The notes beneath the pieces are model-generated. The model had not been told where the DNA came from. It searched no databases and saw only the letters and a program-made list of their open reading frames with translations. From assembly GCA_026388275.1 (NCBI GenBank), contig JAPLKB010000059.1:92155-152825 (forward strand): 60,671 bases of DNA, read 5' to 3'. A program made the position numbers and the translations under genes. Below are positions 480 through 26,749 of this stretch, in pieces. Origin of the DNA: Pseudomonadota bacterium (GTDB lineage: Bacteria; Desulfobacterota; Syntrophorhabdia; Syntrophorhabdales; Syntrophorhabdaceae). The first letter of the stretch is position 1. Each line of letters begins with the position of its first letter.

Positions 480-493
480 CAGGAGGCAAAATT

Positions 494-1282: not shown

Positions 1283-1287
1283 CATCA

Positions 1288-2022: not shown

Positions 2023-2032
2023 TGGAGGCAAT

Positions 2033-2818: not shown

Positions 2819-2844
2819 GGTATAGAGATAGCGAAGAGCTGAAT

Positions 2845-4038: not shown

Positions 4039-4053
4039 TTCAGGGAGAATAAG

Positions 4054-4404: not shown

Positions 4405-4419
4405 AGAAGGAGGTATTCT

Positions 4420-4725: not shown

Positions 4726-4727
4726 TT

Positions 4728-7462: not shown

Positions 7463-7470
7463 GGGGACAA

Positions 7471-9684: not shown

Positions 9685-9746
9685 AACGAAAAAAGGGCAT
9701 GATGCCCAATAAAAAAATAAACATGGAGGTTTACAATGGCTTTTAG
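9666..9746 (+). CDS. Possible 26-codon leader reading frame overlapping the flagellin start
   Basis: AAAGGAGG at 9651-9657 is a stronger Shine-Dalgarno than the one used by flagellin. Eight bases after it a TTG opens a frame of 26 codons (MILPNPKRKKGMMPNKKINM, then EVYNGF) that ends at 9746, eleven bases inside the flagellin gene in another frame. It is rich in lysine, with no recognisable function. It may be translated as a leader that couples or competes with flagellin initiation, or the AGGAGG may serve only as a protein-binding element. No homologue is known to me. Confidence 0.22.
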   Translation: MILPNPKRKKGMMPNKKINMEVYNGF

Positions 9747-10875
9747 AATCGCAACAAACACTGCATCAATCAATACACAGAGATATTTAGGAATTTCAAA
9801 CGCAGGTCAATCAAAAGCACTGGAAAGGCTCTCATCAGGCTACAAAATCAACAAAGCGTCAGATGACGCTGCTGGTATTGCTACAGCGACAAAATTGTAT
9901 GTAAAATCACAGTCAATGTCAAAAGCAATCGATAACGGCAACCAGGCTTTGGCCATGCTGCAGACTGCAGAAGGTGGTATTGACCAGATTTCAAACATTC
10001 TTACAAGGTTAAAAGAACTGGCGACCCAGGCGGCATCTTCCAATACTACAGACATCGCTGCTCTGGACAGTGAGAGGACTAAGCTCGAGGCGGAAATTGA
10101 CAATATTGCTAATAATACAAAATACGGCTCGACTGCGCTTCTTAATGCAACCGGCGGGGCAACCCATGCTGTTGCAAACTCAGGGACTGCCATAGATGGT
10201 CCTAGCGACGGTATTTCGTCAATTGATGTATCAGGCTCGACTAATGCGGCAAGTGCACATGCAACGTTTACCATCGACGTTACTAACAACATTGCTACCT
10301 TGACGGTTGGCGGTACATCCCAGAGTGTGAGCTATGGTGCCGAACCTACGGGACTTAACACAACAACTTTGGATTTCACCAGTCTTGGCGTTAAGGTGAA
10401 TATTAACTCCGCAATGGCAACTTCTATCTCGGCAAACAACGCTTTCTCTATTACTGTCGGTGCTGGCGGCAGCTTTACATTCCAGGTCGGTGATTCAAAC
10501 GTGGGAGAAAACAAGATAACAGCAGCTATAGCAGACTTCCGGACAACGGCTCTTGGCTTCGATGGTGGTGTTACGAAAAAAATAGACACACAGGCGAATG
10601 CCCAGGCATATCTTGGATATGTTGATACGGCAGTAGGTACCTTGACCACTGAGAGAGGCAAACTGGGTTCCACTATGAACCAGGTTGGTTACCATGTGGC
10701 TAACCTTGAGACCATGAACGAAAACACAAAGTCGGCGGTGTCCACCATCAAGGATGCTGATTTTGCTGCAGAGATGGCTGACTTTACCAAGTTCCAAATT
10801 TTGAGTCAGTCCGGCATAGCCATGTTGGCACAGGCAAATCAACTTCCACAATTGGTACTATCGTTGTTGAAGTAG
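9736..10875 (+). CDS. fliC: Flagellin, filament subunit
   Basis: 379 residues. The N-terminal D0/D1 helices are typical (LERLSSGYKINKASDDAAGI, then QTAEGGIDQISNILTRLKEL), as is the C-terminal region (ERGKLGSTMNQVGYHVANLE and the final SGIAMLAQANQLPQLVLSLL). The central part (about residues 140-270) is variable, rich in Ser, Thr, Gly and Ala, and the usual place for O-linked glycans. GGAGG lies before the ATG. A sigma-28-type promoter and a structured leader precede it, and a strong terminator follows at once. Only one flagellin gene is in the window. Codon use is G+C-richer than its neighbours, as for a highly expressed gene. Confidence 0.97.
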   Translation: MAFRIATNTASINTQRYLGISNAGQSKALERLSSGYKINKASDDAAGIATATKLYVKSQSMSKAIDNGNQALAMLQTAEGGIDQISNILTRLKELATQAASSNTTDIAALDSERTKLEAEIDNIANNTKYGSTALLNATGGATHAVANSGTAIDGPSDGISSIDVSGSTNAASAHATFTIDVTNNIATLTVGGTSQSVSYGAEPTGLNTTTLDFTSLGVKVNINSAMATSISANNAFSITVGAGGSFTFQVGDSNVGENKITAAIADFRTTALGFDGGVTKKIDTQANAQAYLGYVDTAVGTLTTERGKLGSTMNQVGYHVANLETMNENTKSAVSTIKDADFAAEMADFTKFQILSQSGIAMLAQANQLPQLVLSLLK

Positions 10876-10893
10876 CAGAAATCGGAATAACAA

Positions 10894-10925
10894 GCCCCCT
10901 TCCGCAAGGAAGGGGGCAATTTTTT
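10894..10925 (+). terminator. Rho-independent terminator after flagellin
   Basis: A perfect ten-base-pair stem GCCCCCTTCC / GGAAGGGGGC with a GCAA tetraloop, followed by AATTTTTTT. It starts 18 bases after the flagellin stop and would separate abundant flagellin mRNA from flaG-fliD-fliS. Confidence 0.95.
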
Positions 10926-10945
10926 CAGGAAAGTAGGAGCAGGTA

Positions 10946-11290
10946 ATGCAAGTTGATGCAAAAAATATCATTTCCGACTTTGAATCTGCTGTAGTTGTAA
11001 GCGTGCCTCAAAAAAGGGAACACAAGAAAACGCCACAACTCTGGAGTGTACAGAGCGAACCTGTAAAGGTTAATGAAGAGACCAAGCGGAAAATAGAGGG
11101 TATGATAAAGGAATTAACCGCATCAAAGCAGCTTAATATGTATTATGACAATGACCTTGACAGAGTAGTCGTAACGATCATAAACGGCGAAAGCCAGGAA
11201 GTGGTACGGCAGGTCCCTTCTTCGGAATTTATTTCATTTATGAAAAAATTCAATCAGTTTGTGGGATTGATGATCAATAGGAGGGTGTAA
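10946..11290 (+). CDS. flaG: FlaG family flagellar protein
   Basis: 114 residues. The C-terminal 60 residues show the FlaG pattern: LNMYYDNDLDRVVVTIINGE followed by VVRQVPSSEFISFMKKFNQF. The N-terminal part is polar and variable, as usual. FlaG proteins influence filament length in several bacteria, but their biochemical role is not settled. It starts right after the flagellin terminator, with TAGGAGCAGG as ribosome binding site, and is followed by fliD after two bases, the common flaG-fliD-fliS order. Confidence 0.88.
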   Translation: MQVDAKNIISDFESAVVVSVPQKREHKKTPQLWSVQSEPVKVNEETKRKIEGMIKELTASKQLNMYYDNDLDRVVVTIINGESQEVVRQVPSSEFISFMKKFNQFVGLMINRRV

Positions 11291-11292
11291 AA

Positions 11293-13008
11293 ATGGCCGG
11301 AACAACATCAATTTCCGGATTATCGAGCGGTACAGACTGGACAAGCATTATCGATTCGACGATTGACGCCCAGAAGTCGGCATCTGTAACTCCTTTACAG
11401 AACAGTAAAACAAAATACCAGTCAAAACTTTCAGCATGGCAAGCTTTAAATACTAAAATTTCCACATTTACTGACTATATAAATAATAATAAACTTAATT
11501 TAAATGAGGGGTACGGTCTATATTCAACAACTTTATATTCAACTGATTCATCTATTACTCCAACAGATGTGCTTAGCGTTTCTCTTGGGACTGTAAGCGG
11601 TCCGGGTAAATATTCAATAGAGATCTCAACTCTTGCGCAGGCGGAAAAGATATCAAGCGATATTTTTGCATCAAGCTCAACTGCACTTGGTTTTTCCGGT
11701 GACTTGCTTATTAACAACAAAGTGGTAACTCTATCAGCTACTGATACTTTATCTGGTGTGGCAAGTCGGATAAATAATGCAAATGCAGGATTAACCGCTA
11801 CGGTACTTGCTATTTCCGATACTCAATACCGGCTTCTTCTGGAGTCAAATTCAACAGGGGCGGCAGGGATGTCCCTTAAAAATGGTTCTTCTGCAAATCT
11901 ACTCGAGTCTCTTAATCTCCATACTGCCACTCAACAACTTGCTCATGCATCAGGAGCCGATTCATTAAGCGATACATTTACAAGCAAGACAACGGCCTTA
12001 AAAAGCCTTTTAAGTCTGACAGCAGAAGAGACAGGAACTATAGGCATAAGAGGCACTGATGATGTGATTAAAAATGTTAATGTAAATTTCACAACAGATT
12101 CTCTCGAGACAATCGTTAGCAACATAAATTTGCAGACTCCTACAGGTGTTACTGCCTCCATTGAAGAAGTAACGGAGAATGGAGCTACAATGTACCGTAT
12201 AAAGCTTACCAACACAGATATAAACGATTTTACGGATGACAAGAACATATTTGAAACATTGGGCATTGTAAAGGCCACAAATAAAAACAGTATCGAGTCC
12301 GGCCAGGATGCCTCTTTAAAAATAGATGGCTATTCAATAACATCTTCTTCGAATACTATTACAACCACAATAAGTGGTGTGACCCTTAACCTTACCGGTA
12401 CTAATGATACAAAGCCTATTGAAATGAGAATAAATCAGGATAGCACACAGATTGGCCAGAAGGTTAATACTTTTGCCAGTAGTTTAAATGCTATCTTGTC
12501 GTATATCAAGGACCAGAATACATACAGCAGCTCATCGACAAAACCTCTCATGGGCGATGTCAATCTTTCGCTTGTAAAGAGCACAATTACCTCCGCTATC
12601 TATGCTTCCGTTAGCGGGAACATTACATACAAAACAGCGTCATCTATCGGGATTAATTTTAAGCCGGATGGCACAATTTCTTTTAACAGTTCTACTTTTA
12701 CTAATGCCTTGGCGGCAAACAAGGGTGAAACAATTAAAGTTTTAACTGAGTTGAATGATAGTTTATATGATAATCTTAAGATATATGTTGATCCTGTTGT
12801 AGGAACCTTTACATATACAGTAACTTCAATACAGAACAAAATAAGCAGCATAGATAAGCATATAGAGGATATGAATGCGAGATACGAGAGACAGAGAGCA
12901 ACTTTAGAAAAAAAATATAATGCTCTGGAATTGCTCATATCCCAATCAAACACGACTAAAAATTGGCTTACGCAACAAGTCAACTATATGTCAAAAAATA
13001 ATGCCTAA
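11293..13008 (+). CDS. fliD: Flagellar filament cap protein FliD (HAP2)
   Basis: 571 residues. The N-terminus (ISGLSSGTDWTSIIDSTIDA) and the C-terminal coiled coil (RYERQRATLEKKYNALELLI, then SQSNTTKNWLTQQVNYM) are diagnostic for FliD, the pentameric cap that folds flagellin at the filament tip. Internal Ig-like domains are rich in Ser, Thr and Asn. GGAGGGTG precedes the ATG. Forms a flaG-fliD-fliS unit. Confidence 0.95.
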   Translation: MAGTTSISGLSSGTDWTSIIDSTIDAQKSASVTPLQNSKTKYQSKLSAWQALNTKISTFTDYINNNKLNLNEGYGLYSTTLYSTDSSITPTDVLSVSLGTVSGPGKYSIEISTLAQAEKISSDIFASSSTALGFSGDLLINNKVVTLSATDTLSGVASRINNANAGLTATVLAISDTQYRLLLESNSTGAAGMSLKNGSSANLLESLNLHTATQQLAHASGADSLSDTFTSKTTALKSLLSLTAEETGTIGIRGTDDVIKNVNVNFTTDSLETIVSNINLQTPTGVTASIEEVTENGATMYRIKLTNTDINDFTDDKNIFETLGIVKATNKNSIESGQDASLKIDGYSITSSSNTITTTISGVTLNLTGTNDTKPIEMRINQDSTQIGQKVNTFASSLNAILSYIKDQNTYSSSSTKPLMGDVNLSLVKSTITSAIYASVSGNITYKTASSIGINFKPDGTISFNSSTFTNALAANKGETIKVLTELNDSLYDNLKIYVDPVVGTFTYTVTSIQNKISSIDKHIEDMNARYERQRATLEKKYNALELLISQSNTTKNWLTQQVNYMSKNNA

Positions 13009-13032
13009 TTAAAGAAAGAGAGAAAAACCAAT

Positions 13033-13467
13033 ATGAACTCTTACACGACATACTCTATGGTCAATAATAGCGTAGATGAGGACAATAAGCCTAAGATGCT
13101 ATTAGTTGTATTGCAGGGTGTTCTTGATAAGATAAGTATAGTAAAAGCGGCATTAGAAAAAAGGGACTATGAAAAAAAATATATCGAATTATCGAAAATA
13201 CAATCAATTATTGAGATTTTAAATTCCTCATTAGATATGTCTAAAGGAGAAATATCTAATAATCTTGCAAGTATATATGATTATTTGGGCAGGCAGTTAA
13301 AACAGGCGCATTTAATATTGGATGATGATATTCTAAATGAATGCAAAGCTATCGTAAAAACGATATATGATGGTTTTTCAGAGGCTTACGCCAAGGAGAT
13401 GAAGACTGCTTCTGTTAAGTCTGGCAACCACCAATCCATTGGAATAAAAGAAAGTAAAATGGTATAA
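13033..13467 (+). CDS. fliS: Flagellin export chaperone FliS
   Basis: 144 residues, a four-helix-bundle chaperone: MNSYTTYSMVNNSV matches the FliS N-terminus, MLLVVLQGVLDKISIVKAAL the MLYDGAI-type helix, and SKIQSIIEILNSSLDMSKGE the flagellin-binding helix region. FliS keeps flagellin monomeric in the cytoplasm. It is the last flagellar gene here, and a hairpin followed by T residues lies 16 bases after its stop, closing the unit. Confidence 0.93.
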   Translation: MNSYTTYSMVNNSVDEDNKPKMLLVVLQGVLDKISIVKAALEKRDYEKKYIELSKIQSIIEILNSSLDMSKGEISNNLASIYDYLGRQLKQAHLILDDDILNECKAIVKTIYDGFSEAYAKEMKTASVKSGNHQSIGIKESKMV

Positions 13468-13641: not shown

Positions 13642-14127
13642 ATGCCTGTAGCTCAAAATGTAAAACTGGGAGAAGGCGTAGCGATCTATCAGTCGAGCCT
13701 GGTTAATCTGTATGGATGTCAAATTGGTGACTATACAAAAATTGGTGCCTTTGTTGAGGTCCAGAAAAATGCCGTCATCGGGAATGCGTGCAAGATATCT
13801 TCGCACACATTTATTTGTGAGGGTGTCATTATTGAAGATGAAGTTTTTGTAGGTCATGGAGTGATGTTTATTAATGATCGTTACCCCAGAGCCACTTCAA
13901 ATGGAAAGTTGCAAACGGAAGAAGATTGGAAAGTGATCGAGACGCGCATAAAGAAAGGCGCGTCAATAGGAAGCGGTGCCATTGTCATGTGTGGAGTTAC
14001 TGTTGGAGAACGAGCTTTAATAGGTGCCGGGGCTGTAGTTACTGAAGATATACCTGACTTTGCTATTGCTGTTGGAGTCCCAGCAAGGGTTACAGGAGAC
14101 ATAAGACAAAAGGAGGACTATACATGA
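13642..14127 (+). CDS. Left-handed beta-helix (hexapeptide) N-acetyltransferase, WlbB/WbpD-like
   Basis: 161 residues made of hexapeptide repeats (YGCQIGDYTKIGAFVEVQKN, AVIGNACKISSHTFICEGVI) with the loop HGVMFINDRYPRAT typical of the WlbB/WbpD group and a C-terminal VGVPARV motif. WbpD acetylates the 3-amino group of UDP-2-acetamido-3-amino glucuronic acid. GGGAGG precedes the ATG. Its four-base overlap with a Gfo/Idh/MocA dehydrogenase, which in turn overlaps a DegT aminotransferase, reproduces the wlbA-B-C gene set. The exact sugar is inferred; closely related acetyltransferases act on other amino sugars. Confidence 0.78.
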   Translation: MPVAQNVKLGEGVAIYQSSLVNLYGCQIGDYTKIGAFVEVQKNAVIGNACKISSHTFICEGVIIEDEVFVGHGVMFINDRYPRATSNGKLQTEEDWKVIETRIKKGASIGSGAIVMCGVTVGERALIGAGAVVTEDIPDFAIAVGVPARVTGDIRQKEDYT

Positions 14128-15152
14128 TTGGAATAGGTGTAATTGGGTTTGGCTATTGGGGCCCAAATCTTGTTAGGAATTTTTCTGAACTGCAAAAGAC
14201 GAAAGTATTGACCATTTGTGATGCTAAACCTGCCAGACTTAAAAATGCACAGACACGTTATGTCGGTATTGAAACTACCGGTGATTATAATGATCTTATA
14301 AACCATCCTGGCATAGACGCTATTGCAATAGCTACCCCTGTTTCGACACACTATGAACTGGCGCTTAAGGCCCTTCAAAACGGCAAACATGTACTTGTAG
14401 AGAAGCCATTAACCATGACTTCCGAACAGGGACTCCGTCTTATTGATGAGGCAATAAGACGAAAACTTGTTTTGATGGTCGATCACACATTTATTTACAC
14501 AGGAGCTGTCCGGAAAATAAAAGAACTTATGTCGAATGATGGAATAGGTCAGATATTATATTACGATTCAGTAAGGGTAAACCTCGGGTTATTCCAATCA
14601 GATATCAATGTGGTGTGGGACCTCGCAGTCCACGATCTTTCAATTATGGATTATGTGCTTGAAACCGAACCTGTTGCAGTATCGGCCACAGGCATGAGTC
14701 ATGTTAACGGGAAACCTGAGGATGTGGCATATTTGACGCTCTTTTTTAATAGCAACCTCATTGCCCATATTCATATCAACTGGCTTGCGCCGGTTAAAGT
14801 GCGGTGTACCCTTATCGGCGGTGATAAGAAGATGATTGTCTATGATGATATTGAACCAAGCGAAAAAATAAAGGTATATGATAAAGGTATTGTCCTTCAG
14901 AATAATGGTGAAGGGGTCTACAAGGAAATTGCAGGATACCGTACAGGTGATATGTGGGCACCAAAACTTGATGGGGCAGAAGCGTTAAAAACAGAGGCAC
15001 TTCATTTTATCGAATGTATTGAAGAAGGCAAGGATCCTATAACCGATGGTGCTGCAGGACTTAAGATTGTCAGGATACTTGAAGCTGCAACTCAGTCGAT
15101 GATGAAAAAGGGTCAACCTGTGGAGCTTAATAAAAACGAGGTGACCGTATGA
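14124..15152 (+). CDS. Gfo/Idh/MocA oxidoreductase, WlbA/WbpB-like
   Basis: 342 residues. The Rossmann nucleotide motif is GVIGFGYWGPNLVRNF (residues 5-20), and the catalytic-lysine EKP motif is present (HVLVEKPLTM), as is the VWDLAVHDLSIMDYVL segment with the conserved His. WbpB-type enzymes oxidise the 3-position of UDP-GlcNAc uronate, giving the 3-keto substrate for the neighbouring aminotransferase. The start overlaps the acetyltransferase stop by four bases and the end overlaps the aminotransferase by four. UDP-GlcNAc 6-dehydrogenase (WbpA), the preceding step, is not in the window. The substrate assignment is inference from context. Confidence 0.8.
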   Translation: MIGIGVIGFGYWGPNLVRNFSELQKTKVLTICDAKPARLKNAQTRYVGIETTGDYNDLINHPGIDAIAIATPVSTHYELALKALQNGKHVLVEKPLTMTSEQGLRLIDEAIRRKLVLMVDHTFIYTGAVRKIKELMSNDGIGQILYYDSVRVNLGLFQSDINVVWDLAVHDLSIMDYVLETEPVAVSATGMSHVNGKPEDVAYLTLFFNSNLIAHIHINWLAPVKVRCTLIGGDKKMIVYDDIEPSEKIKVYDKGIVLQNNGEGVYKEIAGYRTGDMWAPKLDGAEALKTEALHFIECIEEGKDPITDGAAGLKIVRILEAATQSMMKKGQPVELNKNEVTV

Positions 15153-16267
15153 TACCTTTTATGGATCTTAAAAAACAGTACGATGGAATCAAAGATGAAA
15201 TAGACCAGGCAATTAAGAAAGTATTGGATAGCAGCCAGTTTGTCTTGGGGGATGAGGTCGGAGCATTTGAAAAAGAATTTTCTGCCTATTGCACCGCAAG
15301 TTATGGTATTGCAGTTAATTCTGGCACAAGCGCACTACATCTCGCGCTTCTTGCCGCAGGTGTAGGACCGGGAGACGAAGTAGTGACAGTTTCATTTACT
15401 TTTGTTGCTACGACAGCGGCAATTATCTATTCGGGTGCAAAACCGGTGTTTGTCGACATAGATCCAATCTCTTGCACTATGGATATTAATGCGATTGAAC
15501 AAGCTATCACCAACAAAACGAAAGCAATTCTGCCAGTTCATATTCATGGCCAGCCAGCGAATATGGACGAAATTATGCGTATTGCTAAAAAGTATAATCT
15601 TGTTGTTATTGAGGATGCTGCACAGGCGCATGGTGCTGAGTATAAGAGCAGAAGGGTGGGAAGTATTGGAGATCTGGGTTGTTTCAGCTTTTATCCTGGT
15701 AAAAATCTTGGTGCATATGGTGAAGGTGGTATGGTTGTTACCAACAACGCTGAATATGCTCATAAAATCCGTATGTTAAGAGATTGGGGGCAAGAGAAAA
15801 AATATTATCATAAATTAAAAGGATATAACTACCGCATGGAGGGTTTTCAAGGAGCGGTTTTACGTGTAAAGCTACGTTATTTGGAGGAATGGACTGAAGA
15901 TAGAAGAAAACGTGCTTCTCTCTACGATAAAATTCTGTCTGATCCTGGTATTCAAATGCCTGCAAACGTCCCGCATACAAGACATGTGTACCATGTTTAT
16001 GCGGTGCGTACACCATTTAGGGACAATCTCCAAGATTTTCTCCAAAAGAATGATATCCAGACAAATATACATTATCCAATACCAGTGCACATGCAGGCTG
16101 CCTATGCTGATCTGGGAAACAAAGAGGGAAATTTTCCTGTGACCGAAAAAGTTGCACGAGAAACACTTTCGCTGCCTATATATCCGGAATTACCAGTTGA
16201 ATACCAGTATTCGATAGCCGAAAAGGTTCTTCTTTTTATGGAGGGCACGCGTGAGAAATGCATCTAA
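15149..16267 (+). CDS. DegT/DnrJ/EryC1 PLP-dependent sugar aminotransferase, WlbC/WbpE-like
   Basis: 372 residues. The signature elements are present: IPFMDLKKQYDGIKDEIDQA at the N-terminus, NSGTSALHLALLAAGVGPGD, VEDAAQAHGA-type VIEDAAQAHGAEY, and the PLP-binding Lys185 in SFYPGKNLGAYGEGG. Such enzymes transfer an amino group from glutamate to a keto-sugar nucleotide. Four-base overlap with the dehydrogenase suggests coupled synthesis. The 3' end overlaps the methyltransferase gene by 17 bases. Together with the two genes before it, it fits synthesis of a 2,3-diacetamido-2,3-dideoxy uronic acid; the exact product cannot be read. Confidence 0.85.
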   Translation: MIPFMDLKKQYDGIKDEIDQAIKKVLDSSQFVLGDEVGAFEKEFSAYCTASYGIAVNSGTSALHLALLAAGVGPGDEVVTVSFTFVATTAAIIYSGAKPVFVDIDPISCTMDINAIEQAITNKTKAILPVHIHGQPANMDEIMRIAKKYNLVVIEDAAQAHGAEYKSRRVGSIGDLGCFSFYPGKNLGAYGEGGMVVTNNAEYAHKIRMLRDWGQEKKYYHKLKGYNYRMEGFQGAVLRVKLRYLEEWTEDRRKRASLYDKILSDPGIQMPANVPHTRHVYHVYAVRTPFRDNLQDFLQKNDIQTNIHYPIPVHMQAAYADLGNKEGNFPVTEKVARETLSLPIYPELPVEYQYSIAEKVLLFMEGTREKCI

Positions 16268-17039
16268 GGATGATGTAAAATCTTTCTGGCAGGGTCGTGC
16301 ACACGATGAAGGATTGAGTAACCAAGTAACGCACAGAGACAAATGGCAGCGATGGCTGGAAATAGAGCGGATTAAACAGTTATTAAAAAGTAATGACCGC
16401 GTAATAGATGTAGGTTGTGGAAATGGCTATACAACAAGAAAGATTTCTAACTTTGTAGGAGAAATTATTGGTATAGATTATAGCGAAGAAATGATCTCCC
16501 GTGCAATTTCAGAAGTCGCTGAAGATAAGAAAAATAAAAAGAATATGATTTCATTTGCTGTTTGCGATATTACAAAACTTAAGCCTTCTCATTTCGGTTT
16601 TTTTGATATGGCAATTTCAGAGCGGTGTCTTATAAATTTGGAAGATTGGGATGAACAAAAAAAAGCAATAAGCAATATCGCAGGAGTTTTAAAACCCGGT
16701 GGATATTTTTTATTTATTGAAGGATCAAGTTTGGGGAGAAGTGAATTAAACAATTTCAGAAAGTCTGTAGGATTAGAGTCCATGCCCCCGGTCTGGCACA
16801 ATCTGGATTTTGATGAGCATAAACTCATGAAATATTTGGACCGTTTTTTCGCGTTGGAGGAGAGGTTTCACTTTGGCATGTATGATTTTATCGCAAGGGT
16901 TATACATCCTTTGCTTGTCTCACCAAAAGAACCCAAATACAATGCAAGGATTAACAAAATTGCTGCAACCTTGGCGCTTTTTCATCAGGAATTTAGTGAG
17001 ATCAGCAGAACAATATTTCTTGTACTAAAAAAATTGTAA
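16251..17039 (+). CDS. Class I SAM-dependent methyltransferase
   Basis: 262 residues with motif I VIDVGCGNGYTTRKI (about residues 47-61), the acidic IGIDYSEEMISRA segment and a post-II FFDMAISERCLINL segment. The family is broad (methyltransferase type 11/25 fold), and the acceptor is unknown. It starts with GTG and overlaps the preceding aminotransferase by 17 bases. Within a sugar-nucleotide cluster, O- or N-methylation of a sugar or of the glycosylated protein is a reasonable inference. Confidence 0.78.
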   Translation: MRNASKDDVKSFWQGRAHDEGLSNQVTHRDKWQRWLEIERIKQLLKSNDRVIDVGCGNGYTTRKISNFVGEIIGIDYSEEMISRAISEVAEDKKNKKNMISFAVCDITKLKPSHFGFFDMAISERCLINLEDWDEQKKAISNIAGVLKPGGYFLFIEGSSLGRSELNNFRKSVGLESMPPVWHNLDFDEHKLMKYLDRFFALEERFHFGMYDFIARVIHPLLVSPKEPKYNARINKIAATLALFHQEFSEISRTIFLVLKKL

Positions 17040-17057
17040 AATGAAGGACGAAGATAT

Positions 17058-18038
17058 ATGAAGAATAACTTACGTGTTCTGGTTACAGGAGGTGCAGGAC
17101 TTATAGGCTCACATATTGTTGATCAACTCACGGAGGAGAGTGTTTCCGAAGTTATTGTCATTGATAACTTCGTACGAGGTCGACGGGAAAACCTTGCATG
17201 GGCTGTTAATAACGGCAAAGTAACAATAGTCGAAGGAGATATACGGAATATTGATTTTATGATAAAGATCATGAAAGGCGTCGACATTGTTTTCCATCAG
17301 GCAGCAATTCGTATTACCCAGTGCGCTGAAGAACCCCGCCTTGCGAAGGAAGTTCTTGGAGATGGAACCTTTAATGTTCTTGAGGCTGCGGTAAAGAATG
17401 GAGTGAAAAAGGTTGTAGCCGCATCTTCGGCTTCTGCGTATGGAATGGCCGATCTATTTCCCACTAGGGAAAGCCATCATCCATACAACAACAAAACCAT
17501 TTATGGCGCTCTAAAGGTTTTCAATGAAGGGTTGCTTAGAAGTTTTAACGAAATGTACGGTTTGCCTTATGTAGCCCTCCGATATTTTAATGTATACGGG
17601 CCGCGCATGGATGCCTACGGGGCATATACAGAAGTTATGATCCGATGGATGGAGAGGATTAACGCTGGATTACCACCCATCATATTGGGAACCGGTGATC
17701 AGACTATGGATTTTGTGTATGTGGAAGATGTTGCACGCTCAAATATTCTGGCTGCCAAGGCAGATGTGAATGATGAAGTCTTTAATGTCGCAAGCGGTAT
17801 CGAAACGAGCTTAAATGAATTGGCAGAAACTCTCCTTAAAGTCATGGGCTCGGATTTAAAGCCTGAACACGGGCCTGAGAGAAATGTGAATGCCGTTTCG
17901 AGAAGACTTGCCGACACGAAAAAGGCAAAGGAGATGCTTGGTTTCGAGGTTAGGGTTTCGATTGAGAAAGGCCTTGAGGATCTTGTAGCGTGGTGGAAGA
18001 ATGAAGTGAAGAATCTTCCGAAGGGGCCGCAAATTTGA
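17058..18038 (+). CDS. NAD-dependent sugar-nucleotide epimerase/dehydratase (extended SDR)
   Basis: 326 residues. VLVTGGAGLIGSHIVDQL is the NAD-binding glycine motif, and the catalytic Ser...YxxxK triad is present (ASSASAYG, then YGALKVFNEG). The overall pattern (VIDNFVRGRRENL, ALRYFNVYGPRMD) is that of UDP-glucose 4-epimerase or WbpP-like enzymes. It probably inverts or dehydrates a UDP-sugar for the glycan made here. The stop overlaps the radical SAM gene by four bases. Confidence 0.85.
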   Translation: MKNNLRVLVTGGAGLIGSHIVDQLTEESVSEVIVIDNFVRGRRENLAWAVNNGKVTIVEGDIRNIDFMIKIMKGVDIVFHQAAIRITQCAEEPRLAKEVLGDGTFNVLEAAVKNGVKKVVAASSASAYGMADLFPTRESHHPYNNKTIYGALKVFNEGLLRSFNEMYGLPYVALRYFNVYGPRMDAYGAYTEVMIRWMERINAGLPPIILGTGDQTMDFVYVEDVARSNILAAKADVNDEVFNVASGIETSLNELAETLLKVMGSDLKPEHGPERNVNAVSRRLADTKKAKEMLGFEVRVSIEKGLEDLVAWWKNEVKNLPKGPQI

Positions 18039-19366
18039 AAATTACCCTGGTTAATCCCATAAGCGGGAGCGTTTATTCTCAGTTCAGAAGGGCATTGATA
18101 AAAAGGCTTCCCATTGGACTTGCCTATGTTGCTTCCTATCTTGAGACTAATGGCCATGAAGTTTCTGTAATTGATGCCGATACTCTTGATCTTGAAATTG
18201 ACGATACGGTTGATAAAATTATGAGAACAGCCCCGGATGCGGTCGGAGTTACTGCAACCACTCCTATAATCAATAATGCCTTCAATATAATTCAAAGAAT
18301 AAAAGAAAGAGATAAAAGAATTTATACATTTGTCGGCGGTCCCCATGTGAGCGCCATGCCGGCAGAAACCCTTCAGTCAGGGAGAGGTTTCCTCGATTAT
18401 GTTGTTTTTGGTGAGGGCGAAGATAGTTGTCTGGAACTCGTAAGGTGTATTGAGCAGAATGGCCCGTTATCGATGCCTATGGAGGGTGTTGGTTACATAA
18501 ATGACGATGGAAAAATTATAATAGGCACTCAAAGGCCATTTAAAAATAGTCTTGACCTATTTCCCTTTCCGGCCCGTCACTTGTTCCCCATGAACAAGTA
18601 TGTTGACCATACAAAATTCGGCGACGCACTATACACCCTTATAACCACAAGCAGGGGATGTCCTTATGAATGCACTTTCTGTGGTTCTCAAATTACCTGG
18701 CATAAAAAGACACGCCTTAGGTCCCCCCAGAATGTTGTTCAGGAGTTGAAGGAGTGTATTGAGAATTACGACATAACAAATTTTACTTTTTGTGATGATA
18801 CTTTTACCTTGAATAAACGCCATGCCATTGAAATATGCCGACTTATAACGGAATTGCCATACAAAATTAGGTTGTTTTGCTCGTCCAGGGTTAATACGGT
18901 ATCCGAAGACAGACTTGATTGGCTGAAAAAGGCAGGGTGTTACTGTATTACTTTCGGCCTTGAATCGGGCAATGACGTCATTCTGAATAAGATGAAAAAA
19001 GGCATCAACATTGAGATGATAAAGCGGGCAGTAGCAATGACAAAAGAGGCCGGTATAGAAGTCCATGGGAGTTTTATCTTGGGTTTTGAGGATGAAGATG
19101 AGCAGACAATAGAAGATACTATCAGCTTTGCCTTAAGCCTGAACCTTGATCAAATTCAGTTCTCTATCCTTGTCCCTTTGCCGGGGACAGAATGTTATAC
19201 CCATGCCCATGAAAGAAATGCCTTTCGTTGCCGACCTGATGATTTTACGTCCTTCTATTGGTATTATTCAGTGCCTGCAAATATGACAAAGATTGCTGAT
19301 GAAAGGCTCATCGAGCTTCAAAAGAGTGCTTACGAACGTTACAATGCCTCAAAACAAAGGAATTGA
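18035..19366 (+). CDS. B12-binding-domain radical SAM protein
   Basis: 443 residues. Residues 1-150 resemble the cobalamin-binding Rossmann domain of class B radical SAM enzymes (RLPIGLAYVASYLETNGHEV, VGGPHVSAMPAETL), without an obvious DxHxxG cobalamin-ligating motif. The radical SAM centre is CPYECTFC (Cys209, Cys213, Cys216), binding a 4Fe-4S cluster, followed by NFTFCDDTFTLNKRHAIEIC and a FGLESGNDVILNKMKKGI block. The start is TTG, overlapping the epimerase stop. Such enzymes commonly methylate unreactive carbons or remodel sugars and lipids; the substrate is unknown here. Position between sugar genes suggests a modified sugar or its lipid carrier. Confidence 0.85.
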   Translation: MKITLVNPISGSVYSQFRRALIKRLPIGLAYVASYLETNGHEVSVIDADTLDLEIDDTVDKIMRTAPDAVGVTATTPIINNAFNIIQRIKERDKRIYTFVGGPHVSAMPAETLQSGRGFLDYVVFGEGEDSCLELVRCIEQNGPLSMPMEGVGYINDDGKIIIGTQRPFKNSLDLFPFPARHLFPMNKYVDHTKFGDALYTLITTSRGCPYECTFCGSQITWHKKTRLRSPQNVVQELKECIENYDITNFTFCDDTFTLNKRHAIEICRLITELPYKIRLFCSSRVNTVSEDRLDWLKKAGCYCITFGLESGNDVILNKMKKGINIEMIKRAVAMTKEAGIEVHGSFILGFEDEDEQTIEDTISFALSLNLDQIQFSILVPLPGTECYTHAHERNAFRCRPDDFTSFYWYYSVPANMTKIADERLIELQKSAYERYNASKQRN

Positions 19367-19375
19367 AGGAGCTTT

Positions 19376-20614
19376 ATGATACCGATTACAAGACCCTTCC
19401 TTGACGAAAAAGAAGCAAAAGCAGCCCATGATGCCGTACTTTCAGGGTGGGTTACCCAGGGACCAAAGACGATGGAATTCGAGCAGGCCTTCTCAAAATA
19501 CACGGGTGCGAAATTTTCCTGCGCTGTTTCCAATTGTACCGTCGCACTCCATGTAGCATTGCTTGCCGTTGGGGTGATGCCCGGCGATGTTGTTATTACT
19601 GTAAGCCATTCTTTTATTGCTACAGCGAATGCAATACGTTACTGTGGAGCGGAGCCGGTTTTTGTCGATATTGAATTGAAAACATACAATATGGATGTTG
19701 ATAAACTCGAAGAATGCCTCCGTGAAGATTGCGAGATGCATGAGGGCATCCTTTTCTATAAACATATTGATTCGCTTGCAATTGGTGTTTCGCCGCTAAG
19801 TTTCATAAAATCCTTTCCTTCATCAGAAAGGGCAGGAAGGGTTGCCGCAATACTTGCGGTGCATCAGATGGGCACGCCTTGCGATATTTTAGAAATAACA
19901 AAAATAGCAAAGAAATTTGGCATAGCAGTTGTAGAAGATGCTGCCTGTGCCATTGGGAGTGAGATTGAAAATGGCGACTGGGAAAAAATCGGAAAACCAC
20001 ACGGGGATATTGCCTGTTTCAGTTTTCATCCAAGGAAGATTATTACATCAGGTGAGGGTGGGATGCTTACGACCAATAGTTCGGAATATGACAATAAGTT
20101 TAGATTATTGCGTCAGCACGGCATGAGCATTCCGGATACAGCAAGACACAGTTCAAAGAATGTTGTTTTTGAAGATTATGTATTGACAGGGTTTAATTAT
20201 CGTATGACTGATATACAGGCAGCTATAGGCATAGAACAGGTTAAGAAATTAAATGGCATCGTTGAAGAAAGACGCAACCTTGCTAAGGTATATGCCGAAT
20301 TACTCTCCGATGTACCTTTTTTGTGTATACCGAAATCTTTATCCGGCATAAAATCAAATTGGCAGAGTTATCCGGTAAGAATAACGGCGAATTCTCCTTT
20401 TGATCAGGTACCATTCATGCAAAAGCTTCTTGATAATGGAATATCGAGTCGGCGCGGTATTATGAATGCGCACCAGGAGATTCCTTATAAAGAGCAAAAA
20501 TGGAGTCTTCCTAAAAGTGAAGAAGCTCGGAACAGCGTGGTGTTGCTTCCTTTCTACAATGGAATGACCCATGAAGAACTTGATCGTGTTGTTCGAACCA
20601 TTAAGGAGTTGTAA
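19376..20614 (+). CDS. Second DegT/DnrJ/EryC1 sugar aminotransferase
   Basis: 412 residues, a separate DegT-family member. PITRPFLDEKEAKAAHDAVL, SGWVTQGPKTMEFEQAF and the lysine motif SFHPRKIITSGEGG (PLP Lys221) are clear. It is about 40 residues longer than typical because of an insertion around residues 110-160 (from CEMHEGILFYKHIDSLAIGV onward). Enzymes of this shape aminate position 4 or similar keto positions of sugar nucleotides. Having two aminotransferases suggests a di-amino sugar, or two different amino sugars. Three bases separate it from the next gene. Confidence 0.83.
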   Translation: MIPITRPFLDEKEAKAAHDAVLSGWVTQGPKTMEFEQAFSKYTGAKFSCAVSNCTVALHVALLAVGVMPGDVVITVSHSFIATANAIRYCGAEPVFVDIELKTYNMDVDKLEECLREDCEMHEGILFYKHIDSLAIGVSPLSFIKSFPSSERAGRVAAILAVHQMGTPCDILEITKIAKKFGIAVVEDAACAIGSEIENGDWEKIGKPHGDIACFSFHPRKIITSGEGGMLTTNSSEYDNKFRLLRQHGMSIPDTARHSSKNVVFEDYVLTGFNYRMTDIQAAIGIEQVKKLNGIVEERRNLAKVYAELLSDVPFLCIPKSLSGIKSNWQSYPVRITANSPFDQVPFMQKLLDNGISSRRGIMNAHQEIPYKEQKWSLPKSEEARNSVVLLPFYNGMTHEELDRVVRTIKEL

Positions 20615-20616
20615 AA

Positions 20617-21741
20617 ATGAGCAACAAGAAACTGCTTGAATTAGCGCAAAAACGGTATATTTTAGGAAATGTGGCTGAATTACCTGCGTGCCTTGAAGCT
20701 GAATCTTCTTTCAGAAAGTGGAAAGACGAACCATGTGCAATATGCTTCTACGGTACGAATCAATATGCGAGGAATGTACAGGTTAGAGGGTTGGCTGACG
20801 CAAGCCAATATTTTGGTATACCTTTTTATGCTGTTTACAGAGATCAAGAATACGAATTTTCCAATATAACCAAGCAGTTTAAAAACCTGTTGATTATTAC
20901 TAATCTTGCCTTGGTGACTGCTCTTGCATCTTACATGAAAGATGTGAATTACCGTATTGTACTGATTGGACAATATTATGATGAAACACCAGATGAAAGA
21001 CTTGCCCCAAAGGTGAGTGTACAGGAGAAATCAATACTGCAGCTTTTCCGGAAAGATATTGCCTTGGTGATTTCTGAATTTTCCGGCGAAGGAAGTATGA
21101 GATATATGTATGGGTATGTTAAAAAATTCGGAATACCAGTTATGAGTTTTCCTTGGGCAGTGAACCTTAATTATCATTTTCCTTATGAATGCGGAATCAA
21201 AAAGGACGTTATTTTTATAGGCACTTACTCTGAGAAAGCACAAAGAATTGACAGCTATTTCTCTTCTATTCTTAGAAAATATCCTCATACCGTTATTGGT
21301 CCCGATTGGTCTAAGTCACCCTTCAGATGGATAAGCAATAGCATTATTGATATAAAAGATTTCAATGTGAATGCTCCTTTATTGTACTCTTCCCACACTG
21401 TAAGCCTCAATATACACCTTCCTTTTGAGGAGAGCGGTTATAGTTGTAATGAGAGGGTATTCAATTCTGTGGCATGCGGAGGATTTCAGATTTGTGACAA
21501 TCCTCGGAGGTTAAAAGATTATTTTACCGATGAAGAGCTTGTAACGGCTGATTCACCAAAAGAGTATTTTGATAAAGCGGCATATTTTGTCCAAAACCCT
21601 GACGAACGTTACCCGTTTATGGAGCGGAGCTTGGAAAAAATGTATTCCTTTCACACATATCACCATAGATTGTCCGATCTGCTTAATGCTGTATTTGCCC
21701 GGAGAAGCCTTTCCAATATTTGCTATATGATAAGCTCATGA
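20617..21741 (+). CDS. CgeB-type glycosyltransferase
   Basis: 374 residues. The C-terminal third carries the family block NERVFNSVACGGFQICDNPR, then RLKDYFTDEELVTADSPKEY, seen in CgeB and group 1-like (GT-B) transferases of spore or surface glycosylation. The N-terminal half is only weakly conserved and includes IVLIGQYYDETPDERLAP. GAGTTG precedes the ATG. Its C-terminal module is related to the N-terminal domain of the next protein, suggesting duplication. Donor and acceptor are unknown. Confidence 0.7.
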   Translation: MSNKKLLELAQKRYILGNVAELPACLEAESSFRKWKDEPCAICFYGTNQYARNVQVRGLADASQYFGIPFYAVYRDQEYEFSNITKQFKNLLIITNLALVTALASYMKDVNYRIVLIGQYYDETPDERLAPKVSVQEKSILQLFRKDIALVISEFSGEGSMRYMYGYVKKFGIPVMSFPWAVNLNYHFPYECGIKKDVIFIGTYSEKAQRIDSYFSSILRKYPHTVIGPDWSKSPFRWISNSIIDIKDFNVNAPLLYSSHTVSLNIHLPFEESGYSCNERVFNSVACGGFQICDNPRRLKDYFTDEELVTADSPKEYFDKAAYFVQNPDERYPFMERSLEKMYSFHTYHHRLSDLLNAVFARRSLSNICYMISS

Positions 21742-21754: not shown

Positions 21755-24433
21755 ATGAAGATTATGTTTTTCTTTCCTGAAGCAGGCTCGCCTAAAGGCG
21801 CTGGCGATTATTCACATTATAACTTACGTGCTCCCTTAATAAAACTTGGCCATGAAATAATTGACTTTGATTTTTGGGAAGAAGAAAAGAAACTGGGAAA
21901 GGAAATGATGCTCGCAAAGGTTAAAGAGATTGTTGAAAAAGAAAGACCGCATATTTTTTATCATGGTATTGTTGAAGAAGAGTTTGATGTTAATCTTGCC
22001 GATTATATTCGTGATTATACTGAAACAACTTCAATGATCTGGTTTAGCGATGATGACTGGAGGTTTGAACATTCGATGCGCTGGGCAGATCATTATAGCT
22101 TTGCTTTCACAACTTGCAAAGAAGCCTTCCGTGAGTTTCACGCGAGAGGATATGATAATGTCATATTATCGCAATGGGGCTGTAATACGGACCTTTATCA
22201 TCCTATCCCAAGCGAAAAGCTATATGATGTAACTTTTGTGGGGCAGCCGTACAAGGGTCGCACGGAATTGATAGCCTTTCTCAAAGAGCATGGGGTTTCT
22301 GTTCGAGTATGGGGCCAGGGGTGGGAAAATTTTTCACAACTCAGAGATATCGCACACGGATATCTGCCTCATCAGAAGATGCTTGAAGTATTTAGCGCTT
22401 CTAAAATTGTCCTTGGTATGGCGTGGTGTTCTTTTGACGGCAAGACGCCTCAAATCAAGGGGAGAACATTTGAATATCCGGCATGCAAGGCTTTTCAATT
22501 AACGAATTATGATAAGCGTGTACTCGATTATTTTACAGAGAAAGAGGAAATAGTTTTTTATAATGATAAAAAAGATCTGTTGGATAAAATACGGTATTAT
22601 CTGGCGCATGAAGACGAAAGGAATTTCATCACCGAGGCTGCATATGGAAGGGCAGTAAAAGATCACACATGGGAAAAACGTTATGAACTTATGTTTAAGG
22701 AGATGACAGCCAGAAGCGGCAAAAACAAATTACCCCTTGTTTACAAAGAAAATGTTGCTTCAATAAGTAAAGTAGCCAAGAACATTGATCATACCCCTAA
22801 GATCTCAGTTATATCGTATGTTTATAACTATGGTAACTACCTTAAGGAACTCATCCCTTCTGTTCTTAATCAGACCTTCAAGGACATTGAGTTTTTGATC
22901 CTCGATGATGGATCGACCGACAATACAAAAGAGGTTGTAGAGAGTTTTTGTTATGATCAGCGCCTTAAATATGTTTATCAGGACAATATAGGGAAAGATA
23001 ACAGATTTAATGAACTGATAGAGCGCGGCCTTCAGTTGACTAAAGGGGAATTTGTCAATTTTGTAGGCGGCGACGATGTTTTTATGCCTGATAAGCTTGA
23101 GCGGCAAATGAAAGAGTTTGAAAAAACTCCGTATCTTGATATTGTTTTTTCTGATCTTTTTTTTATTGATGATCGAGGCCGGGTTTTGCCTGGAGATTAC
23201 AAATCCCAGGAAAGTGTTTCTTTTAATAAAGGGACTCTTGCGAGAATGCTTTTTAAAATAAATTTTATTGCTCATCCGACTGTTTTAATGAAAAGGGCTT
23301 GTATTGATGCCATGGGTGGTTTTGAGAGATGGTGGTGTGCTGATCTCCATTTTTGGTTAAAATCGGCACCTTTCCTGAATTTCAAATTTATTGATGAGAA
23401 ACTTATAAAATATCGAATTCACGATAAGGGTGCATCAACCAGTGCTGTTAACGCGGATATCACCTTTTCCGAAACCAATAACATGCTTCAAGTAATGCGA
23501 TCAAAATATACAATCATTGATCTTTATCCGGAAATCAATTATTGCATAAATCGGGCAAAAGCCCTTTACAGTGCATATGTTGAATTAGGCAACAATATGA
23601 TGCTTGCCAAAATACCTCAAGTGTCATTAGCTGTCGATGAATATCGCAGAGCCCTTGAACATGAACCAAAGGGAGTAGAAGCGATCAATAATATCGGTTT
23701 GGCATTTTTTCTTCTTGGTGATAGAAAGAAGTTCATAGAATTTTTTCAATATTTGAAAGATAATGCGAGCCACATTGAAATTATTAGAGCAAATATTGTT
23801 TTTGCCGAGCAAATGGCGTCGGGAAAACAAGGTGAAGTGAAATTTACCCTTCTCAACGAACTTATTGAAAATAATGAGTTTGTAAGAGCAAAGAAAATGC
23901 TTAATGATGAGCATTTAAAGACAATGATGTCCAACATTCAAAATCTTAACAACGGCAAAGAATCATATCGTAAAAGTGTATACGAAGAAACTGAAAAGCT
24001 TTCGGGAGAAGGAAAATATGCAGAGGCGGCGGCAAAACTGGAAACATTGTTTGATTCCTTTCCGGACAATTCTACTCTATGGAATGATTTGGGTGTTTTA
24101 TACTACTATGCAGATGAAACGGGATGTGCTGTGGGATATATAGAAAAGGCGCTTCAGCTTGATCCGGGGAACCTGGAAGCAAAGAAAAATCTGGCCAATA
24201 TTTACCTTGAAACCGGAAAATGTGAAATGGCGATCGATATGTTCTATGATATTTTGAAAGAACATCCTGATGATGCCGAAGTGTTATCTATTACGGGTGA
24301 TGTGCTTAAAGAAATTGGAAGAGAGGTGGATGCTGTGGGATTTTACGAGAGAGTTCTCAAGTTGGAACCGCATAATGTCCGGGCTCAGGAATGTTTAGAA
24401 AGACTAAATAATGTTTTAAGCAGCTATCAGTAA
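21755..24433 (+). CDS. Large fused glycosyltransferase: CgeB-like GT-B, GT2 and TPR domains
   Basis: 892 residues with three parts. Residues 1-330 are a CgeB/GT1-like module (GRTFEYPACKAFQLTNYDKR, VLDYFTEKEEIVFYNDKKDL). Residues about 347-570 are a family 2 GT-A domain (KISVISYVYNYGNYLKELIP, FLILDDGSTDNTKEV, VGGDDVFMPDKLERQMKEF). From about 620 to the end there are TPR repeats (GVEAINNIGLAFFLLGDRKK, NLEAKKNLANIYLETGKCEM). Two catalytic domains could add two successive sugars, with the TPR part binding the protein acceptor. Fourteen bases follow the previous gene, with AGGAGATATA as ribosome site. Bifunctionality is inference. Confidence 0.8.
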   Translation: MKIMFFFPEAGSPKGAGDYSHYNLRAPLIKLGHEIIDFDFWEEEKKLGKEMMLAKVKEIVEKERPHIFYHGIVEEEFDVNLADYIRDYTETTSMIWFSDDDWRFEHSMRWADHYSFAFTTCKEAFREFHARGYDNVILSQWGCNTDLYHPIPSEKLYDVTFVGQPYKGRTELIAFLKEHGVSVRVWGQGWENFSQLRDIAHGYLPHQKMLEVFSASKIVLGMAWCSFDGKTPQIKGRTFEYPACKAFQLTNYDKRVLDYFTEKEEIVFYNDKKDLLDKIRYYLAHEDERNFITEAAYGRAVKDHTWEKRYELMFKEMTARSGKNKLPLVYKENVASISKVAKNIDHTPKISVISYVYNYGNYLKELIPSVLNQTFKDIEFLILDDGSTDNTKEVVESFCYDQRLKYVYQDNIGKDNRFNELIERGLQLTKGEFVNFVGGDDVFMPDKLERQMKEFEKTPYLDIVFSDLFFIDDRGRVLPGDYKSQESVSFNKGTLARMLFKINFIAHPTVLMKRACIDAMGGFERWWCADLHFWLKSAPFLNFKFIDEKLIKYRIHDKGASTSAVNADITFSETNNMLQVMRSKYTIIDLYPEINYCINRAKALYSAYVELGNNMMLAKIPQVSLAVDEYRRALEHEPKGVEAINNIGLAFFLLGDRKKFIEFFQYLKDNASHIEIIRANIVFAEQMASGKQGEVKFTLLNELIENNEFVRAKKMLNDEHLKTMMSNIQNLNNGKESYRKSVYEETEKLSGEGKYAEAAAKLETLFDSFPDNSTLWNDLGVLYYYADETGCAVGYIEKALQLDPGNLEAKKNLANIYLETGKCEMAIDMFYDILKEHPDDAEVLSITGDVLKEIGREVDAVGFYERVLKLEPHNVRAQECLERLNNVLSSYQ

Positions 24434-24568: not shown

Positions 24569-26749
24569 ATGATTCATTGTATTGGAGACAGCCATGTTAT
24601 GATTTTTACAGGCATTGATGAAGTAAAAGAAAACAATGATTCTCTTACATTCTTCAGAACGCATTGGATTGGTCCACGGACAGCATTTAACATAATAGAT
24701 AAAACAGATATAATATCTCGTATTGTTGAAGGGAACCTGCAGGAAGGAGACAGTATTTTGTTCTGTTTCGGAGAAATTGACTGCAGGGCCCACTTGTTGA
24801 AGCAAGCAGAGATGCAAAATAAACCGCTGACTGATATTGTGCATAATTGTGTTAGCAGATATGTCAAGATTTTTGAGTTTGCAAAAAGATATGGTCACCG
24901 GATTATTGCCTTAAGTGTTCCGCCGTCAGGTTTTGGAGATTGGGATTATGGCGAATTTCCTACATATGGGAGTTGCCATCAAAGACTTGAAGCAACAAAA
25001 TTATTTAACAGGTCGCTTGAAGAATACTGTGAAAACAATGATGTTTATTTTGTCTCTATATTTGAGAAGTTGCTCGACAACAACGGAATGCCGGATCCTA
25101 TTTATTACATTGATAACATACATCTTTCACAGAGGGTTATGCCTTTTATCATTGATGAATTATGCAAATTGAGCTTATTGAAAGATGAGTACCTTCTATC
25201 TTATAAAAAAACTTATCTTCCATACAGTGCTTGCATTTCGCAAGGAGATTTTGAATTGAAATTAAGGAGTCCTAAATTCAGTGGTTTTATAAGGCCGGAT
25301 TTTCTTAAAGAGATACAGTTAATTAGTGGGGCTGAATATTTTATTGAGAGCGGCACATATCTTGGTCATACTTCTGATGTAGCTTCTCTGATCTATAAGG
25401 AGGTTTATACGATAGAGTTGAGCAAAGATCTCTATTCGGCTGCTGTAAAGCGTTTTGAAGGCAGGCCGAATATACACATTTACCAGGGAGATTCTGCGCA
25501 TATTTTCCCTAAAATGTTACCGCAAATAAGAGGGAAGGCGGTGTTTTGGCTTGATGCTCATTACAGCAAGGGCGCTACCGAGAAATCTTCAAACAATACT
25601 CCCATTATTGAGGAGTTGCAGACGATAAAAGATTCGTCGATAAGAGATGCTGTAATTTTAATAGATGATGTGATCAACTTTCAAAAAATATCAAAAAACA
25701 GCGTGGAGTATTCAAGCTTGACAGGATATCCTACAATTAATGAAGTCTGCAGCTTGATAAAAGACATTCAGGAAGAATATAAATTTGCAGTGCTCGGCAA
25801 TGCTTTAATGGCTTATCCGGGTAAATTGAATATTCTCTTGTCACCTGTTCTGCAATCTTGTACGATAAGCCGCCTTTTCAATGGCGACAATCTTGATGTA
25901 AATGATGTAACGGGAGCGGAAGAAATAATTAGCCAGGCAGAAGGAGTGGAACTGTCTGCAATCAGGGAACTCCGTGAAAATTCTCTGGATATGGAGAACT
26001 ATGGACTTGGAGGACATTATAGGCTTTGGTATGCTTTGACTCTATATAAAGAAAAAAGATTCGATGATGCCTGCAATGAATTAGCAATTACTATGAGACT
26101 TGACTGCGATCATTGGAGGGTCAAATGGTATATGGCTTGTGCCGCATATGAAGGAGATAATTATTTGCTTGCAGAGAAGTCCTTATGTTCAGTATTGTCA
26201 GAATCTCCTCAGTTCCCGGAGGCACTAAGCTTATTCGAATTATTAAAGCAAAAGCATGAACAGCATCCATTATCGAATCATATAAGTCCGCAAAGCCACC
26301 TTGCTTTGGCAAATCAGTATCAAAATGAAGGCAAATATGTCGAGGCACTTCATGAAATCGAGAATGCTGTCAATAAAGGTATAGACAATAATGATGTAAG
26401 GTATCAATATGCCCAATTGTTAATAGCAACCCGTCAATTAGAGAAGGCTGAGATTGAGTTAAAAGAATTGGTTACAAAAAATATCAAACATACATTCGCG
26501 TATAATGATCTCGGTGTTATATCATCCTATAAGGGCGACCACAATGGGGCAGTTCAATACTTCAAGATAGCTCTTTCAGCATCTAACGTAAATTATGGAG
26601 CGTTGAAAAACCTGCTTTCCTTACTTATTAAACAACAAAACTATCATGAAGCAATTGAAATAACACAGTTGCTAATGAAAAATATGCCTGAGGATAAAGA
26701 GCTCCGCATAGTTGTTAAAGAATTTAATTTGCCTATTTTGTTACAATAA
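24569..26749 (+). CDS. SGNH-hydrolase-like, methyltransferase-like and TPR fusion protein
   Basis: 726 residues. Residues 1-200 look like an SGNH/GDSL esterase fold: IGDSHV places Ser8 as the nucleophile, FCFGEIDCR (66-73) occupies the block III position, and Asp182-x-x-His185 (DNIHLS) fits the catalytic dyad. Residues about 240-400 resemble a SAM-dependent methyltransferase: FIESGTYLGHTSD (motif I), TIELS (acidic end of strand 2), GDSA and FWLDAHYSKG, then VILIDDV. Residues about 470-726 are TPR-like. A GGAG site precedes the ATG. It closes the glycan island, 135 bases after the fused glycosyltransferase. It may remove or add an acyl or methyl group on protein-linked glycan. The family assignments are from motifs only, and I know of no named protein with this order. 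Confidence 0.65.
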   Translation: MIHCIGDSHVMIFTGIDEVKENNDSLTFFRTHWIGPRTAFNIIDKTDIISRIVEGNLQEGDSILFCFGEIDCRAHLLKQAEMQNKPLTDIVHNCVSRYVKIFEFAKRYGHRIIALSVPPSGFGDWDYGEFPTYGSCHQRLEATKLFNRSLEEYCENNDVYFVSIFEKLLDNNGMPDPIYYIDNIHLSQRVMPFIIDELCKLSLLKDEYLLSYKKTYLPYSACISQGDFELKLRSPKFSGFIRPDFLKEIQLISGAEYFIESGTYLGHTSDVASLIYKEVYTIELSKDLYSAAVKRFEGRPNIHIYQGDSAHIFPKMLPQIRGKAVFWLDAHYSKGATEKSSNNTPIIEELQTIKDSSIRDAVILIDDVINFQKISKNSVEYSSLTGYPTINEVCSLIKDIQEEYKFAVLGNALMAYPGKLNILLSPVLQSCTISRLFNGDNLDVNDVTGAEEIISQAEGVELSAIRELRENSLDMENYGLGGHYRLWYALTLYKEKRFDDACNELAITMRLDCDHWRVKWYMACAAYEGDNYLLAEKSLCSVLSESPQFPEALSLFELLKQKHEQHPLSNHISPQSHLALANQYQNEGKYVEALHEIENAVNKGIDNNDVRYQYAQLLIATRQLEKAEIELKELVTKNIKHTFAYNDLGVISSYKGDHNGAVQYFKIALSASNVNYGALKNLLSLLIKQQNYHEAIEITQLLMKNMPEDKELRIVVKEFNLPILLQ

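Follow-up and report, generated by a model that had tools for sequence, protein, structure and literature searches.

The forward-strand open reading frame at 24569–26749 of the 60,671-nucleotide stretch of DNA analysed here (the window) encodes a 726-residue protein in which an SGNH-like domain, a SAM methyltransferase domain and a TPR domain follow one another, and which we read, with the chances evenly balanced, as a cytosolic flagellin-glycan tailoring enzyme whose two catalytic modules act in turn. Flagellin-glycan tailoring is the best explanation for the placement of the gene, which closes a cluster that apparently makes sugars and links them to the flagellum: genes of the flagellar hook, filament and cap come first, then flagellin, and then sugar and TPR-glycosyltransferase genes. 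The protein is of wider interest for two reasons: an atypical SGNH domain and an O-methyltransferase recur together, unnamed as a pair, in surface-glycan loci, and modular flagellin-glycosylation proteins occur here in a genome in which a Maf-type transferase was not found (PF01973, E 0.001).

Gene, predicted domains and putative active sites

The reading frame opens with ATG, with GGAG about 8 nt upstream, and has a full-length relative of 57% identity in G027, a genome of the same family as that of the window, as well as a second relative (56% identity) in G033 that ends at a contig edge. Between the target gene and the G027 relative, synonymous change is saturated (pS 0.86) versus a pN of 0.27, and purifying selection is seen in the SGNH, methyltransferase and TPR parts alike. 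Selection thus maintains the gene in all three of its parts, and a chance reading frame is ruled out by the full-length relative together with this purifying selection. The N-terminus (MIHCIGDSH) passes directly into an SGNH strand with no leader, so the protein should act in the cytosol. In Pfam and NCBIfam scans only TPR and TPR-like models exceeded the cut-off, and no named family of either library reached it for the SGNH and methyltransferase parts; neither a glycosyltransferase family (Pfam) nor a CMP-sugar synthetase domain (Pfam, NCBIfam) was matched. All motifs named in the preliminary description are present by column check, with GDSH at 6–9 (Ser8) and D-x-x-H at D182/H185 as it had placed them, SGTYLGHTSD within 260–269, LDAHYSKG at 328–335 and LIDDV at 364–368.

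The SGNH-like domain (residues 1–205, 24569–25183, + strand) is supported by AF2 modelling, VIA matches and column counts. Modelled alone from an alignment of 22 rows it gives a pLDDT of 90.8 and a pTM of 0.89, and modelled as part of residues 1–470 from 29 rows the values are 78.7 and 0.76. The VIA matches of the model span the whole domain; the best are esterases (6xpg, 6njc, 7pzg), with sialate O-acetylesterase 6xpg at Z 15.6 (rmsd 2.9, 170 aligned, 18% identity); PatB 8tlb at Z 15.0 and PAF acetylhydrolase 1wab at Z 14.7 are also matched. Designed FI6 scaffolds (9hi4–9hi6) score beside these natural esterases in the fold search and were left out as relatives of the domain. The predicted structure, with its Z of 15.6 over 170 residues, agrees with the SGNH fold that had been claimed from the sequence, and the assignment of this fold to residues 1–205 is supported at the level of the model. 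The profile search that had been proposed as a check did not return the family above threshold: PF13472 (Lipase_GDSL_2) scores 18.0 bits with the whole protein and 21.2 bits with the SGNH domain alone against a gathering cut-off of 32.9, and it is weakly matched by all 19 members of alignment A3.

Columns were counted over 40 distinct SGNH sequences, the scorable number differing by position. The triad is retained almost throughout (Ser8 in 37/38, Asp182 in 38/39 and His185 in 39/39), and Gly35, a candidate for the block II oxyanion Gly that sits after strand 2 in the model, is kept in 35 of 38. Block III of SGNH enzymes is GxND, and its Asn is the oxyanion residue, the N of SGNH. In the target this block is GEIDCRAH (68–75), with GEID in place of GxND and the Asn absent, which the preliminary description does not mention; the 39 scorable sequences all have G68, E69, D71 and R73, and position 70, which was equated with the block-III Asn by motif and strand position, is I (as in the target), L or V in every one of them. 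The substitution lies within the invariant motif GE(I/V/L)DxR. The target resembles the Bacteroides sialate O-acetylesterases 6njc and 7pzg in its SGNH fold, Ser and DxxH, and differs from them in an identity of about 18% and in GEIDCR for GxND.

Retention of the Ser-Asp-His triad argues for catalysis, whereas loss of the block-III Asn points to a changed oxyanion site, and with block III altered the domain may be an esterase or an acyltransferase; ordinary hydrolysis is thus uncertain on these sequence grounds. That the SGNH part is catalytically dead, a glycan-binding module beside a methyltransferase that works alone, is in our view very unlikely: the Asn is missing in 39/39 scorable sequences and a distant relative in L083 has a Cys at the Ser position and no triad Asp, but Ser, Asp and His are otherwise near-invariant across phyla at 34–61% identity to the window, which is unexpected for a dead site. 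Within the same flagellin setting, the SGNH module could instead be an acyl-CoA-using O-acyltransferase that adds an acyl group beside the methyl, a reading that we consider somewhat unlikely. The cytosolic position of the protein, the invariant GE(I/V/L)DxR in place of the hydrolase block III and the recovery of the peptidoglycan O-acetyltransferase PatB by the fold search (8tlb, Z 15.0) would all suit it, as would a relative in L035 that is joined, as read by eye, to a sulfotransferase-like domain, another group-transfer enzyme. CASD1 offers a direct parallel, its SGNH-like fold being that of an O-acetyltransferase with a covalent intermediate for which esterase activity was not found (PMC8319020). 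However, the best structural matches remain the esterases 6xpg, 6njc and 7pzg, and an acyl-CoA site was not identified; with moderate confidence we take an esterase to be more likely than an acyltransferase.

The middle domain (residues about 237–437, 25277–25879, + strand; AF2, VIA, conservation) had been proposed as a separate SAM-type fold, and the model is in accord with this, since a COMT-type Rossmann fold is predicted at a Z of about 14.5. Residues about 237–419 match cation-dependent O-methyltransferases (4oa8 at Z 14.8, COMT 2zth at Z 14.3), and enzymes of this type fill the top VIA rows (Z 13–14.8), supporting, as far as a model can, a class I Rossmann methyltransferase of the COMT type. 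In the proposed profile search the domain matched no Pfam methyltransferase family. The SAM motif ExGxxxG lies at 260–266; E260, G262 and E283 are invariant in 20/20 methyltransferase sequences, D329, H331 and D367 are present in 19/19 and D366 in 18/19. By motif, we take D329, D366 and D367 to be equivalent to the metal-binding acids D141/D169/N170 of COMT, which makes them candidate metal ligands. The domain shares its Rossmann fold, SAM motif and acidic residues after strands 4 and 5 with COMT, SafC and TrmR, and is set apart from COMT-type enzymes by 11–17% identity in structural alignments, an LDxHxS motif and the lack of a Pfam family at the cut-off.

The TPR domain (residues about 488–720, 26030–26728, + strand; Pfam, relatives) is a candidate protein-docking module. 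TPRs are general docking modules that can bind many proteins. The TPR-like helices noted from the sequence are recovered by Pfam TPR_19 (E 9.9e-13) and other models in the C-terminal part, and the stretch is about 30–35% identical to those of other modular glycosylation proteins of the family, a similarity that supports a shared docking role.

The flagellar and sugar gene cluster

All features of the cluster lie on the + strand. At the left end of the window, flagellar rod, ring and hook-associated genes (flgF/G, flgA, flgH, flgI, flgN, flgK and flgL, read from translations) and FliW (by NCBIfam) occupy 57–8119. A GT2 and TPR protein (8121–9602; Pfam), a candidate flagellin glycosyltransferase, stands between fliW and flagellin, and flagellin, FliD and FliS (Pfam, NCBIfam, translations) follow at 9736–13467. 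The sugar-biosynthesis genes (13642–21741), assigned by profile matches and in part by synteny with L021 and L024, encode in order a hexapeptide acyltransferase, Gfo/Idh, DegT, a methyltransferase, an epimerase, a B12 radical SAM protein, a second DegT and a CgeB-like glycosyltransferase. The immediate upstream neighbour of the target is an 892-residue protein with CgeB-like glycosyltransferase, GT2 and TPR parts (21755–24433; Pfam), which has a counterpart of 61% identity at the equal position in L021. The target is the final gene of the cluster, after flagellin, FliD, FliS and the sugar genes, and XerC, HslV and HslU (read from translations) come after it. L021 repeats this gene order, beginning with the first DegT and including the target, at 54–71% identity; MotA (read by eye) lies downstream there, and synteny with L024 begins at the sugar-cluster methyltransferase. 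In the genome of the window, PF01973 found no Maf-type transferase at E 0.001, but among 14 control genomes this model matched archaea only, so the negative result is weak.

A TPR domain in a protein from a flagellar glycosylation locus is what is also seen in FlmG-like enzymes. The idea put forward earlier, that the enzyme edits glycans on a protein bound by its TPR part, fits the position of the gene in a flagellin and glycan cluster and the precedent of FlmG.

Two features of this genome may be recorded here. The B12-binding radical SAM protein of the sugar cluster (18035–19366) has HpnJ and BchE, below cut-off, as its best NCBIfam relatives, and sugar C-methylation or other chemistry is possible. 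Four NeuB-family matches lie outside the window, on contigs C64 and C12 of the same genome (G000). In three other loci, radical SAM genes that resemble one another (ELTNRCPMRCVMCPRT) stand just before the SGNH gene (L045, 3977–4945; L048, 6929–7996) or two reading frames before it (L038, 6016–6954).

Recurrence of the SGNH-methyltransferase pair

Species genomes were scanned with the SGNH alignment; of the 17 loci recovered, 15 fall outside the window family, and the number rose when further phyla were searched. The SGNH domain is linked to the same methyltransferase type in 7 of 34 SGNH loci outside the window family, in several phyla: L040 (Magasanikbacteria) and L041 (Cerasicoccus arenae) carry the two as a fusion, L036, L044 and L072 have them side by side and L080 as a divergent pair, and in L046 they are separated by 2.8 kb. 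In the other 27 loci the methyltransferase was not seen near the SGNH gene within the flanks read, which for many of the 34 were 1.5 kb only. Chance adjacency seems unlikely, since at E 1e-5 this methyltransferase type was found in only 11 of the 148 phylum genomes sampled. Six changes of the linkage label are needed on the SGNH tree, at least four of them forced by starred branches. By the pattern of occurrence, the pair looks like one functional unit, and its recurrence in unrelated bacteria suggests that the two modules probably finish surface sugars jointly.

The preliminary description had known of no named protein with this domain order. Contiguous SGNH-methyltransferase-TPR order was indeed seen only in two close relatives; the pair alone is found in other phyla. 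A literature search found no paper describing an SGNH-methyltransferase pair, and the libraries and papers searched gave no name for the pairing, the GE(I/V/L)DxR subfamily or the three-domain order; both folds are already known, as is the concept of glycan tailoring by bifunctional or TPR-recruited enzymes.

Relatives of the target extend to much larger chains. The 2,390-residue protein of L022 (G018) carries in one chain SGNH, a GT10-like glycosyltransferase, the same methyltransferase, TPRs, a second methyltransferase-like part (assigned by eye), GT2 and TPRs, and in the 2,583-residue protein of L023 (G015) the same methyltransferase type lies between GT2 and TPR modules. Such a methyltransferase-carrying GT2/TPR protein is found near flagellin and FlgG/I/K/L genes in L023/L092. 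As a further observation, L023 (4540–12291) and L093 hold very long modular glycosyltransferase/TPR glycosylation proteins, in open frames of 2,000–2,900 residues, from family relatives.

Outside the window family, SGNH genes lie mostly in LPS, capsule or unrelated contexts. The target could be an enzyme of another cell-surface glycan, or of sugar nucleotides before transfer, with its TPR part a multi-enzyme scaffold rather than a flagellin binder. The SGNH-methyltransferase pairs of polysaccharide and LPS-type loci elsewhere, where flagellar genes were not seen, would be in keeping with this, and so would the general docking nature of TPRs and the presence of both modules inside large glycosyltransferase proteins. 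We nevertheless regard it as unlikely, as flagellin and hook genes adjoin both in the window and in L092/L023 and the sugar cluster of the window comes directly after FliD/FliS.

A tentative wider picture is that GE(I/V/L)DxR SGNH domains may form a family, as yet without a name, that transfers or removes acyl groups at a rebuilt oxyanion site. Together with the methyltransferase they would be a recurrent two-step sugar-capping unit of several phyla, and in Syntrophorhabdia-type bacteria this unit may have been incorporated into assembly-line-like, TPR-docked proteins for flagellin glycosylation that reach about 2,400 residues.

Proposed action on the flagellin glycan

In the tailoring reading, flagellin, or else the TPR-glycosyltransferases that load it, would be the docking partner of the C-terminal TPR domain, and the SGNH and methyltransferase modules would then work in sequence, with the outer end of the glycan as the likeliest site. 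The SGNH module, with the triad Ser8-Asp182-His185, would take off or put on an O-acyl group by way of a covalent acyl intermediate on Ser8, and the COMT-type module would transfer the methyl group of SAM to a sugar hydroxyl with a divalent metal on D329/D366/D367. We infer the two activities and the order in which they act, the metal, flagellin as the target and the preference for esterase over acyltransferase; the two-step scheme is suggested by the precedents of FlmG, NeuA, CASD1, O-methylated flagellin sugars and bifunctional end-modifiers.

Flagellin glycosylation is cytosolic in characterised systems (PMC4065374; FlmG, PMC7591256), and the TPR domain of FlmG binds flagellin and so recruits it to a cytosolic glycosylation enzyme (PMC7591256). 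The target is like FlmG of Caulobacter, a TPR and GT-B flagellin O-glycosyltransferase, in being presumably cytosolic, modular, TPR-bearing and encoded in a flagellin glycosylation locus; unlike FlmG, it has two tailoring modules and no glycosyltransferase in its chain, the glycosyltransferases being neighbours or, in L022, fused. NeuA is a precedent for the fusion of a cytosolic O-acetylesterase domain for sialic acid with a second sugar activity (PMC8319020). With this enzyme of group B Streptococcus (a CMP-sialic acid synthetase and O-acetylesterase) the target would share a cytosolic esterase-type domain and a second sugar-modifying activity, whereas it lacks a nucleotidyltransferase, has an SGNH domain without the block-III Asn and has a methyltransferase as the partner. 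The predicted groups have counterparts on flagellins, as the terminal flagellin sugar of Pseudomonas syringae bears acyl and O-methyl groups (PMC3927599) and an O-methylated flagellin modification is found in Shewanella (PMC3765264). In O-antigen systems, bifunctional methyltransferase-kinases modify chain ends (PMC11231755); like the terminal modifiers WbdD and K. pneumoniae ORF6-O7, the target combines a methyltransferase with a second group-modifying domain of the kind that acts at glycan ends, but it has SGNH for the kinase and TPR for the coiled coil. Residues S8, E69, D71, R73, D329 and D366, and the small stand-alone pairs elsewhere, offer handles on the coupling of acyl and methyl chemistry.

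Several relatives of the single domains were met in passing. L083 (253–3039) encodes a 929-residue repeat protein with a divergent SGNH domain, in which GNC replaces GDS and the DxxH Asp is lacking, and in L035 (7977–9503, WWE3) the sulfotransferase-like fusion, assigned by eye, adjoins a second such gene. In plasmid and phage records no full-length match to the 726-residue protein was found, and two plasmid matches span the methyltransferase part only. Relatives of the methyltransferase part occur in Synechococcus phages, and the unannotated 635 kb phage record LR745206.1 holds a relative of the SGNH part (429496–430062) at 27% identity.
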